Below, piece by piece: positions 8,697 through 10,577 of a stretch of DNA of 10,697 bases. Location of the stretch: contig JAEURE010000064.1 of NCBI GenBank assembly GCA_016789485.1, positions 1-10,697 of the forward strand, written 5' to 3'. Every line of letters begins with the position of its first letter. The first letter of the stretch is position 1. Source of the stretch: Anaerolineales bacterium (GTDB lineage: Bacteria > Chloroflexota > Anaerolineae > Anaerolineales > Villigracilaceae). Both the position numbers and the translations under genes were made by a program. The notes under the pieces were generated by a model. It had not been told where the DNA came from and ran no database searches. It saw nothing but the letters and a program-made list of their open reading frames with translations.

Positions 8697-8969
8697 ATGC
8701 CTACGGTCCGCTTTCCCGCGTTGATGAAATTCTATGTGGACAACCAGAGTGAATTTGAAGTGAATGGTTCCTCAGTTGCCGAATTGATCGACAATATCCT
8801 CGTTCTTTATCCCGCGCTGAAACCGCATTTGTTTGATGCAAAGGGCGACCTGCGCAGACACTTCAATATTTTTGTGAACGGCATTCATCTGCAGGATTTG
8901 GATGGAATGGATACGAAACTAAAAGACGGGGACAAGGTTATCCTCATGGCATCCGCAGCCGGGGGATAA
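8697..8969 (+). CDS. cysO: CysO-like ubiquitin-fold sulfur carrier protein (MoaD/ThiS family)
   Basis: 90 residues, the usual size for this family, ending in Ala-Ala-Gly-Gly. The C-terminal di-glycine is the site that is adenylated and converted to a thiocarboxylate. Segments H-F-N-I-F-V-N-G near residue 60 and D-G-D-K-V-I-L-M near the end are the typical beta-strands of MoaD/ThiS/CysO folds. MoaD, ThiS and CysO cannot be separated by sequence alone, but the next two genes (CysM-like synthase and Mec-like peptidase) are the partners of CysO in Mycobacterium, so CysO is the best call. The E1-like activating enzyme (MoeZ/MoeB type) is not in the window. No good Shine-Dalgarno is present; a TAAAAT at 8685-8690 would give transcription starting close to the ATG, so it may be leaderless. 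cysM follows after a 247-bp regulatory gap. Confidence 0.88.
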   Translation: MPTVRFPALMKFYVDNQSEFEVNGSSVAELIDNILVLYPALKPHLFDAKGDLRRHFNIFVNGIHLQDLDGMDTKLKDGDKVILMASAAGG

Positions 8970-8977
8970 TTTTTTCA

Positions 8978-9005
8978 TTGACAAATCGGGTAAGATACGT
9001 AAAAT
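8978..9005 (+). promoter_or_regulatory. Strong promoter driving the cysM-mec transcript
   Basis: A perfect -35 TTGACA (8978-8983), a 16-bp spacer and -10 TAAAAT (9000-9005, five of six). Transcription should start near 9012, leaving about 205 nt of leader before cysM. The -35 box begins 9 bp after the CysO-like stop codon, so cysM and mec can be controlled apart from cysO. Confidence 0.8.
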
Positions 9006-9024
9006 AGCCAACATCTAATCGAAA

Positions 9025-9078
9025 ATGAAATCATCCAACCTTTACTTACATTGCTTGTGTCTATCGCGGGGCTCGTAG
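9025..9078 (+). CDS. Putative cysteine-rich leader peptide (17 aa) upstream of cysM
   Basis: ATG at 9025 opens a 17-codon frame ending at TAG 9076-9078 and reading MKSSNLYLHCLCLSRGS. Two of the 17 codons are Cys (TGC 9052-9054, TGT 9058-9060), flanking one Leu. It starts about 13 nt after the predicted transcription start of a strong promoter and is followed by a foldable GC-rich region and an intrinsic terminator before the cysteine synthase gene. That is the arrangement of amino-acid attenuator leaders such as trp or his, here matching the end product of the gene it precedes. Cysteine-responsive attenuation through Cys-codon short reading frames is known in mycobacteria. There is no clear Shine-Dalgarno, so translation is unproven; chance occurrence of two Cys codons cannot be excluded from one sequence. 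Confidence 0.55.
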   Translation: MKSSNLYLHCLCLSRGS

Positions 9079-9180
9079 CCGCCGCCTGAGACAGACCCTC
9101 CGCAGTCAACGGAATCAGACGGTAGGACGACCCCCGCTTGCAGAATTTTGCATAGTGTGGCGTTTGTTCGCCGTCTTTTT
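9064..9180 (+). promoter_or_regulatory. Candidate cysteine-responsive transcription attenuator (structured leader)
   Basis: Helices visible by eye: outer 9066-9076 with 9127-9137 (ten pairs, one C-C mismatch); middle 9082-9089 with 9115-9122 (seven of eight); inner hairpin 9099-9102 with 9110-9113; and the terminator stem 9159-9162 with 9169-9172. A competing helix pairs 9117-9122 with 9171-9176, which would take the 3' arm of the terminator and cannot coexist with the middle helix or the terminator. A ribosome stalled at the Cys codons (9052-9060) would cover roughly to 9072 and block the outer helix. Which state is ON cannot be settled by eye. It does not match TPP, SAM, T-box or other riboswitches I know. 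A novel small-molecule riboswitch is the main alternative. Confidence 0.55.
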
Positions 9181-9183
9181 GTT
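9157..9183 (+). terminator. Intrinsic terminator in the cysM leader
   Basis: Stem GGCG (9159-9162) and CGCC (9169-9172) with a 6-nt TTTGTT loop, two wobble pairs that extend it, and a downstream GTCTTTTTGTTT run. It is short and only moderately stable, as suits a conditional terminator, and lies 34 nt before the cysM start. Confidence 0.6.
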
Positions 9184-9216
9184 TACCCGTTGGCTGCTTT
9201 TAATTTAAGAGATTTC

Positions 9217-10167
9217 ATGACTTTACTAGACTTTAGATTAGCTGAATCAAACTTACGCTCGCTGGATGGACTGCCTGCCCACGTTGGGAATACGCCTCTC
9301 CTTCCGCTTCGCAGACTAAGCCTTGGCCTGTCTCCTCGTGTCCAAATATTTGCCAAAGCTGAATGGTTTAATCCCGGCGGCTCTGTCAAGGACAGGCCTG
9401 CGTTGAACATTATCCAGACCGCCATCCTGAATGGGGATTTGGGCAATGGCAAACGCCTGTTGGATTCCACCTCTGGAAACATGGGAATTTCATACGCCAC
9501 CTTTGGCGCAGCGCTGGGAATCCCCGTCACATTGGCGTTGCCAGCCAGCGCCAGTTCCGAGCGCATCGCCATTCTCAAAGCCTTGGGTGCGGAATTGATT
9601 CTTACAGATCCGCTCGAGGGTTCGGATGGTGCCATTCTCAAAGCGCGAGAGCTCGCCGCCGAAAAACCAGACTTGTATTGGTATGCCAATCAATATAACA
9701 ACCCTGCCAATCCGCAGGCACATTACATCTCCACAGGACCAGAGATCCTTTGCCAGACAGACGAGCAAATAACTCATTTCATTGCAGGTCTTGGCACTTC
9801 CGGCACACTGATGGGCACGGGACGTTATCTGCGTGAGCAATTGCCGAATGTGAAGATTTTGGCATTCCAACCCGATGCATCTTTCCATGGCTTGGAAGGA
9901 CTCAAGCACATGCCGACCGCGATCAAGCCTGGGATTTATGATGAGTCATTTGCTGGCACTCCGCTCACAGTTAAGACGGAGGCGGCGCACGAGATGGTAA
10001 TCCGTTTGGCGCGGGAGGAAGGCCTCTTCGTGGGGATATCCTCCGGGGCGGCGGCTGTGGCTGCGCTTCAAGTGGCACGTGAATTGGATGAAGGCGTTGT
10101 GGTGACATTATTCCCCGATGCTGGCTATAAATATTTAAGCGACAAAAGTTTGTGGGAGAGTAAGTAA
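9217..10167 (+). CDS. cysM: CysM-like cysteine synthase (PLP-dependent, carrier-protein type)
   Basis: 316 residues from ATG 9217, a usual length for fold-type II PLP synthases of the CysK/CysM family. The PLP Schiff-base lysine is Lys58 in N-P-G-G-S-V-K-D-R; the Asn loop is T-S-G-N-M-G (85-90); the phosphate-binding loop is G-L-G-T-S-G-T (191-197); the C-terminal G-I-S-S-G-A-A (273-279) holds the ring-nitrogen Ser. The end, D-A-G-Y-K-Y-L-S, resembles mycobacterial CysM, which joins O-phosphoserine to the thiocarboxylate of CysO. Position between CysO-like and Mec-like genes supports that reaction, though O-acetylserine plus sulfide cannot be excluded. The longer TTG start at 9148 is rejected because it runs through the leader terminator. 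A weak AAGAGA site precedes the ATG. It overlaps mec by one base (TAATG), so the two are coupled, and its expression is probably controlled by the upstream attenuator. Confidence 0.92.
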   Translation: MTLLDFRLAESNLRSLDGLPAHVGNTPLLPLRRLSLGLSPRVQIFAKAEWFNPGGSVKDRPALNIIQTAILNGDLGNGKRLLDSTSGNMGISYATFGAALGIPVTLALPASASSERIAILKALGAELILTDPLEGSDGAILKARELAAEKPDLYWYANQYNNPANPQAHYISTGPEILCQTDEQITHFIAGLGTSGTLMGTGRYLREQLPNVKILAFQPDASFHGLEGLKHMPTAIKPGIYDESFAGTPLTVKTEAAHEMVIRLAREEGLFVGISSGAAAVAALQVARELDEGVVVTLFPDAGYKYLSDKSLWESK

Positions 10168-10577
10168 TGCTGTCGGTTTCAAGTGAATTGATCGGACAAA
10201 TTAGCAGGCATGTTGAGGAAGCCTACCCTGAAGAGGGGGCTGGCTTTTTGATCGGCGTGGAGGGTGAAGTGCGGCAGATTTTGTCTTTGCCCAATGCGCG
10301 AGAGGATGAGGCTCGTCACAACCGATTTTTGTTCACGCCTGAGGATTATCTCACTGCTGAATTGAAAGCTGACAGCCTTGGCTTGAGCTTGATCGGTGTA
10401 TTTCATTCGCATCCCGATTGCCCGAACATCCCTTCTGAATATGACCGTGAATGGGCGCAGCCTTTTTTCTCCTACGTCATTACGCGTGTGGATGCGGGCA
10501 AGGCGGTCAATCACCGCTCATGGCGGCTGGTGGAAGATCGTTCGAAGTATGAAGAAGAAGAGATTTCTATTCAATAG
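10167..10577 (+). CDS. mec: Mec-like JAMM/MPN zinc peptidase (releases cysteine from CysO)
   Basis: 136 residues, a minimal single-domain JAMM protein. The metal site is complete: Glu23 in P-E-E-G-A-G-F-L-I-G, then His80-Ser81-His82-Pro and Ser90...Asp93, fitting the H-x-H-x7-S-x2-D signature. In Mycobacterium the homologue Mec+ is a Zn2+ peptidase that cuts the CysO-cysteine adduct made by CysM, freeing cysteine and regenerating the Gly-Gly carrier end. The same partners sit directly upstream here, so that role is likely. Its ATG overlaps the cysM stop by one base (TAATG), with GGGAG at 10154-10158 as ribosome-binding site inside the cysM end, so cysM and mec should be translated together. 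The Glu-rich tail (E-E-E-E-I-S-I-Q) is not part of the core fold. Confidence 0.92.
   Translation: MLSVSSELIGQISRHVEEAYPEEGAGFLIGVEGEVRQILSLPNAREDEARHNRFLFTPEDYLTAELKADSLGLSLIGVFHSHPDCPNIPSEYDREWAQPFFSYVITRVDAGKAVNHRSWRLVEDRSKYEEEEISIQ

Follow-up and report, generated by a model that had tools for sequence, protein, structure and literature searches.

The segment between a cysO-like gene and cysM (ATG 9217) in the DNA analyzed here (10,697 nucleotides of contig JAEURE010000064.1, referred to as the window) carries a leader at positions 8978-9201. This leader belongs to a real RNA family of the Anaerolineales and is built like a transcription attenuator with cysteine codons, a function that we infer from its sequence. 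Taking all comparisons together, it is very probably a ribosome-mediated transcription attenuator that senses charged tRNA-Cys. The original prediction had proposed a cysteine attenuator at this place, and this reading is supported by comparative sequence analysis, with attenuation predicted from the anatomy of the leader.

The cysM locus and its promoter

The window encodes ThiS, PALP, and Prok-JAB domain proteins in this order (Table 1), a CysO-CysM-Mec+-like arrangement. The start of the JAB gene overlaps the cysM stop codon by one base, and the two genes probably form part of the same operon. Close relatives of the window cysM are recorded as Anaerolineales or Chloroflexi MAGs.

Table 1. 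Features of the leader and of the neighboring genes (window coordinates)
Feature	Position	Strand	Remarks
cysO-like sulfur-carrier gene, ThiS/MoaD family, upstream neighbor	8697..8969	+	Pfam ThiS, E 2.2e-8
σ70-type promoter TTGACA-16-TAAAAT	8978..9005	+	11/12 consensus match
Leader peptide uORF MKSSNLYLHCLCLSRGS*, 17 codons	9025..9078	+	ATG 9025, TAG 9076-9078; in-frame ATG in 174/180 leaders
Putative regulatory codons TGC-TTG-TGT (Cys-x-Cys)	9052..9060	+	Cys codons 9052-9054 and 9058-9060; kept in 41/42 extra-family loci
P1, lower part of protector hairpin	9059..9096	+	Pairs 9059-9065 with 9090-9096, mismatched once in window; some genus members only, as judged by eye
Hairpin A (protector/anti-antiterminator) over uORF codons R-G-S-stop	9066..9085	+	95.8% of genus cells, 94.6% in 101 leaders
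Antiterminator 5' arm GCGGGGCTCGT	9066..9076	+	10 pairs with 9127-9137; 99.5% of genus cells, 93.6% in 101 leaders
T2 long-range helix, 5' arm GCAGTCAACGG	9102..9112	+	11/11 pairs doubly changed in model-fitted alignment; refound without alignment
Terminator T1	9117..9180	+	Consensus fold of 38 leaders: 9117-9127 with 9167-9176, into TTTTT 9176-9180
Antiterminator 3' arm ACGACCCCCGC	9127..9137	+	Pairs with 9066-9076
T2 3' arm CCGTTGGCTGC and TTTT (9198-9201)	9187..9201	+	Pairs with 9102-9112
cysM-like cysteine synthase gene (PALP), controlled gene in proposed model	9217..10167	+	Pfam PALP, E 8.4e-67
JAB-domain (Mec+-like) gene	10167..10577	+	Pfam Prok-JAB, E 1.1e-21

The consensus promoter that the original prediction had described is indeed present at the start of the leader. 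Across the genus, the best promoter deviates from the consensus by one mismatch of 12 in all 38 leaders, compared to three to five mismatches when each leader was base-shuffled once. Between the −35 and −10 hexamers (window 8984-9005), many leaders of the genus and of a sister genus contain, as judged by eye, a GTAAGAT-like string; it is possibly a regulator site or a promoter feature. No SD-like motif was found ahead of the uORF in 37 of the 38 genus leaders.

The window sequence on its own makes a weak case: scanner counts were not above chance for promoters (3 vs. 3.2 expected) or terminators (3 vs. 2.9 expected), and the single-sequence fold of the leader was only mildly better than that of shuffled sequences (z −1.89). 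It is its conservation that lifts the leader above chance. Searches against Rfam gave no match for the window, either at the gathering threshold or at E values up to 5, and none at gathering for 12 related loci. An identity as T-box or SAM riboswitch is therefore unsupported.

Distribution of the leader in the Anaerolineales

A search for cysM in 57 genomes of the genus placed the leader upstream of all 38 orthologues with their 5' end on a contig, among the matches listed. By eye, it is kept within the genus also where cysO is not located directly upstream. A covariance model built from these 38 leaders (R1) matched 128 of 152 genomes of the family, representing 25 of 26 genera. Eight genomes of the genus lacked an R1 match, and none of them had a cysM orthologue with a 5' end among the matches listed. 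At the family level, 100 further places besides the known loci were read, some of which are second copies in the same genus; 18 weak matches of 119, lying on the strand opposite to the main match of the respective locus, were left out.

Since R1 contains the bases of the Cys codons, the models R2 and R3 were built without them, the latter from 86 matches of R2 (E 1e-6) over 97 loci. R3 matched 195 of 400 genomes and 70 of 130 genera in the order sample, with eight families among the matches listed. In the class sample, 32 of 396 genomes were matched, 27 of which were order members drawn again, and all 27 matching genomes of the phylum sample (400 genomes) belong to the order. Of the 195 matching order genomes, 93 lie outside the family. 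From 37 of these genomes we read 39 loci, chosen mostly for their high scores, together with three class-level loci. The 41 C-x-C loci obtained in this way represent five further families of the order as well as two genomes outside the order (G645 and G556), whose matches look real. The 42nd locus, L220 from G483, looks like a false match without any sign of a leader by eye and was removed, and the R3 matches in G502 and G654, likewise outside the order, were left out of the reading. The resulting set of 180 leaders, some of them nearly identical, comprises the 38 cysM leaders of the genus, 101 others of the family, and 41 from outside the family.

The genome of the window (about 75% complete) contains two clear leaders, the one upstream of cysM and a second copy (G000:C185:2025-2177, L104:301-453) ahead of genes for a rhodanese sulfurtransferase and a SufE-like protein. 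Two leaders were also found in tandem ahead of a cysM-type gene (L159:301-454 and 606-749).

Conservation of the leader peptide and its Cys codons

The 17-codon frame with Cys-Leu-Cys named in the original prediction was found as described. The genus frames span 14 to 17 codons from the nearest ATG, with C-L-C in 38 of 38. All 100 further family loci read TGY-NNN-TGT, a count that is biased because the Cys-codon bases are part of R1. With the Cys-free model R3, the nine bases directly upstream of the match read TGY-NNN-TGT in an open frame at 41 of the 42 loci outside the family, and these 41 frames start with ATG or TTG. Relatives that keep the hairpins while the frame is broken or the Cys codons are lost had been named as evidence against the proposal; what we found instead, with this model, was C-x-C in frame at 41 of 42 loci. 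The Cys codons are kept while the codon between them varies. This single variable codon separates them in 180 of 180 leaders and encodes L (90), S (35), M (23), I (20), T (7), V (3), F (1), or N (1). The first Cys codon is TGC in 171 leaders and TGT in nine. The second one (window 9058-9060) is TGT in all 180, although TGC (116 occurrences) is commoner than TGT (26) in the downstream genes.

An ATG in frame with the Cys codons occurs within 45 nt upstream of the first of them in 174 of 180 leaders, compared to five and six in the other two frames. Of the remaining six leaders, one starts with GTG, four start with TTG, and one has its ATG at a distance of 48 nt. When GTG and TTG are also counted as starts, this control does not discriminate (180, 11, and 168 leaders in the three frames), probably because the base before TGC often creates a TTG in the third frame. 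Thus, an open reading frame with codons for the amino acid of the pathway, as in known attenuators, is present as conserved sequence with predicted translation.

These data bear on the possibility that the leader is a metabolite riboswitch or a protein-binding RNA in which the short frame is incidental. Such an RNA would be strongly conserved, as is the case here, and homologous copies before several kinds of sulfur-related genes are typical of riboswitches. But neither the in-frame bias of ATG (174 of 180 vs. 5 and 6) nor the retention of Cys codons outside the modelled RNA (41 of 42 loci) would be expected of it, and Rfam offers no match. We consider it highly improbable.

The distance between the second Cys codon and the GCGGGG arm of the antiterminator is 5 nt in all 180 leaders, both ends of this gap lying inside the model for those loci found with R1. 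The uORF stops beyond the usual codon in eight of 180 leaders and before it in four. In L215, L233, L245, L247, L248, and L251 the stop lies well past its usual place, so that a ribosome at the stop codon would sit downstream of the antiterminator arm.

Alternatively, the conserved peptide C-x-C-x-x-R-G-S could itself arrest the ribosome when cysteine or some other small molecule is sensed; its codons would then matter as residues and not as tRNA sensors. R-G and mostly S are indeed nearly as conserved as the Cys codons, both of which occupy fixed places, but R-G-S lies in the antiterminator arm. Because this arm encodes R-G-S, its conservation is explained by base pairing. In addition, the six leaders named above encode other residues after the R-G region, eight different residues are found in the middle of C-x-C, and the part preceding the Cys codons varies in both length and sequence. 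Nascent-peptide arrest therefore appears very unlikely, if marginally less so than a riboswitch.

Alternative helices and probable nested terminators

Mutually exclusive GC-rich helices had been postulated for the leader. GC-rich alternatives are present, and comparative support for them was obtained, which is modest in the case of the antiterminator. A terminator is likewise found ahead of cysM as predicted, but it is larger than the 6-pair hairpin (9157-9174) given by the terminator scanner: as the whole terminator, this hairpin is replaced by a larger stem (T1) in the consensus fold of the 38 leaders. Hence, an intrinsic terminator with a U-tract before the first structural gene is present as sequence and predicted fold. 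The original description did not include the long-range helix T2 (9102-9112 with 9187-9197), which is a probable second terminator enclosing T1, judging from its sequence. T2 and the antiterminator could form a pseudoknot. Insertions of about 50-60 bases, some of them resembling small repeats, are located between the second U-tract and cysM in L009, L012, L025, L035, L036, and L040.

In a MAFFT alignment of the genus leaders, made without using structure, 99.5% of the cells were paired for the antiterminator, 98.8% for T2, and 100% for the base of T1, with little variation. A second alignment comprised 101 diverse leaders (A3; 90 of the 100 family loci and 10 of the 38 genus leaders, with one locus represented twice). 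A3 was aligned to R1, which holds hairpin A, T2, and a short hairpin but no base pairs of the antiterminator or the base of T1. It contained 220 cells changed on both sides, compared to 46 in shuffles, and none of 500 shuffles reached as high a number. T2, to which the alignment was fitted, accounts for 188 of these cells and shows double changes in all of its 11 pairs. T1 contributes 21 and the antiterminator 11, neither of them fitted. T2 was also recovered without any alignment: in 175 of the 180 leaders, the best helix between its two regions outscored that of a single shuffled copy, and the next four bases include at least three U in 139 of 180.

The antiterminator alone was paired in 93.6% of the cells of the 101 leaders, and its 11 doubly changed cells compare to 3.3 in shuffles (0 of 500 as high). 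The number of its doubly changed pairs, on the other hand, was not above shuffles (90 of 500 reached the same). A control helix slid by +3 contained 12 doubly changed cells compared to the 11 observed, but was paired in only 23.6% of cells. In a swap test, the own partner of the antiterminator arm beat the median swapped partner for 39 of 45 distinct arms, compared to 73 of 132 and 58 of 140 in controls. Such tests were weak for the distal part of the antiterminator (31 of 49) and for hairpin A (33 of 57). Concerted changes of entire arms are seen, for example, in L246, L216, and L213 outside the family and in L159 within it. The check for helix covariation thus revealed compensatory changes, with a modest signal for the antiterminator.

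The T2 3' arm ends 19 nt ahead of the cysM start in the window. This proximity would suit a translation-level mechanism, in which stalling on the uORF opens or closes the ribosome-binding site of cysM, as has been reported for polycysteine uORFs of mycobacteria; the U-tracts would then be incidental. But two terminator-like helices, one nested in the other and both followed by a U-rich run, were found in 134 of 180 leaders and in only 11 of 180 base-shuffled sequences. Moreover, the distance from leader to gene ranges from about 0 to over 100 nt (with start codons picked by a script), and transcriptional control fits better with such variation. Of the three alternatives considered here, control of translation seems the least probable and hardly to be expected.

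Proposed mechanism and folding simulations

The uORF, its C-x-C codons, their spacing, the helices, the promoter, and the gene set are documented by the sequence comparisons. From these we infer the following model of transcription attenuation, including the site of initiation, stalling of the ribosome, termination and its release when cysteine is scarce, and what T2 contributes. RNA polymerase would start near position 9012, and a ribosome would begin translation of the uORF. With ample cysteine, it would pass both Cys codons and reach the stop codon, where it would cover GCGGGGCUCGU and prevent formation of the antiterminator. T1, backed by the enclosing T2, would then end transcription ahead of cysM. 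If cysteine is short, the ribosome would wait at a Cys codon and leave GCGGGGCUCGU free just outside the entry channel, 5 nt past the second Cys codon. The freed arm could pair with ACGACCCCCGC and hold the arms of T1 apart, so that cysM and the JAB gene would be transcribed.

Folding of the 38 genus leaders reproduced parts of this scheme. With the ribosome edge at 9080-9091, corresponding to a ribosome at the stop codon, the antiterminator formed in none of the leaders and T1 in 37-38. An edge at 9062-9065 combined with transcripts ending at 9140-9160 gave the antiterminator in 34-38 of the 38 leaders; an edge at 9071 gave it in none. At full-length equilibrium, T1 still wins with the ribosome at the first Cys codon (T1 0.98 in the window; mean of 38 leaders 0.58), and kinetic trapping or pausing must therefore decide. 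Early transcripts without a ribosome favored the antiterminator in 37 of 38 leaders at 9140, 33 at 9150, and 21 at 9160, so the role of the protector was not cleanly reproduced. When the second Cys codon occupies the A site, the arm at 9066 is 12 bases from the first base of the P site; the ribosomal helicase is positioned at +11. Whether the second Cys codon may serve as a further trigger in the model depends on which ribosome edge holds.

Genes downstream of the leader

A downstream gene was found for 177 of the 180 leaders, and 174 of these matched cysteine or sulfur references. According to the best BLAST reference, they encode CysM (95), CysK (38), CBS-type proteins (5), rhodanese (24), DUF4395 proteins (10), a serine acetyltransferase (1), and a sulfur transporter (1). 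The references for the latter two match only themselves, and the genes downstream of L135 and L161 were set by hand. Of the remaining three leaders, L086 and L082 precede a ThiS gene (by Pfam for L086 and by eye for L082), while L096 is followed by a masked stretch and then a gene resembling SufE by eye. Pfam analysis of ten representative downstream regions also identified SufE after the rhodanese gene at L104 and a thioredoxin-like gene after the DUF4395 gene at L172. Every assignable downstream gene has a link to cysteine or sulfur, the least certain case being DUF4395-thioredoxin.

The leaders probably form a regulon in the Anaerolineales, as far as gene context indicates. A more comprehensive view seems to us fairly likely: a single homologous RNA that senses the ribosome, keeps a fixed codon-to-helix geometry, and has two nested terminators would control a cysteine/sulfur regulon across this order (synthesis, sulfur transfer to Fe-S assembly, thioredoxin, and uptake).

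Comparison with known systems

The original prediction knew of no described case in this phylum. In agreement, our literature search, with limited coverage of subscription papers, found among its top matches no cysteine attenuator in Chloroflexota and no leader-peptide attenuator of any kind in print for this phylum.

Mycobacterial polycysteine uORFs are short Cys-codon ORFs before cysteine genes that mediate cysteine-responsive attenuation (Canestrari et al. 2020, as cited in PMC9031893 and PMC13236596; earlier PMC4633059). The Anaerolineales leaders likewise place a short Cys-codon ORF ahead of cysteine genes. As portrayed in these sources, however, the mycobacterial uORFs are leaderless, contain contiguous Cys codons, and act at the level of translation, whereas the Anaerolineales leaders have no contiguous Cys run (split by one codon in 180 of 180). 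Actinobacterial cys leader peptides have been described without terminators, no conserved terminator hairpin being seen in Mycobacterium cys leaders (PMC1262725). The leader-peptide attenuator of ilvB1 is treated in PMC13236596.

The uORFC-8-2 motif of the Rhodobacterales is located upstream of cysS and combines a uORF with two conserved Cys codons, a structured leader, and a U-run terminator, for which ribosome-mediated attenuation was proposed (PMC8632094). The Anaerolineales leader shares with this motif the uORF with two conserved Cys codons, the structured leader, the U-run terminator, and the proposed mode of attenuation (PMC8632094). According to the same description, uORFC-8-2 belongs to another phylum, carries tandem Cys-Cys usually at codons 14 and 15, precedes only cysS, and has a first stem that contains the Cys codons. 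The Anaerolineales leaders, in contrast, have C-x-C just before the antiterminator arm, precede cysteine-synthesis and other sulfur genes, and contain two nested terminator-like helices. Going by this description, they are set apart from uORFC-8-2 both by the genes they precede (cysM/cysK and others, in place of cysS) and by C-x-C in place of adjacent Cys-Cys codons.

In the attenuators of trp and his, a uORF senses codons, and protector, antiterminator, and terminator structures exclude each other. Leader-peptide attenuators are usually regarded as local, fast-evolving, and tied to single operons. The Anaerolineales leader resembles the trp, his, and ilv attenuators both in its codon-sensing uORF and in this set of competing helices. 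It differs from them in its amino acid, cysteine, in that homologous leaders are spread over an order and precede several gene types, and in the second terminator-like helix that encloses the first. In several families, the same conserved RNA with its two Cys codons is found ahead of seven kinds of cysteine- or sulfur-related genes, of which three were encountered only once or twice. If our interpretation is true, this leader would provide a well-sampled example of transcription attenuation specific for cysteine, and its covariance model could readily predict which genes of uncultured Chloroflexota are under cysteine control. Codon-sensing leaders could then spread as a regulon, and the Anaerolineales leaders would represent the leader-peptide counterpart of a T-box or riboswitch regulon.
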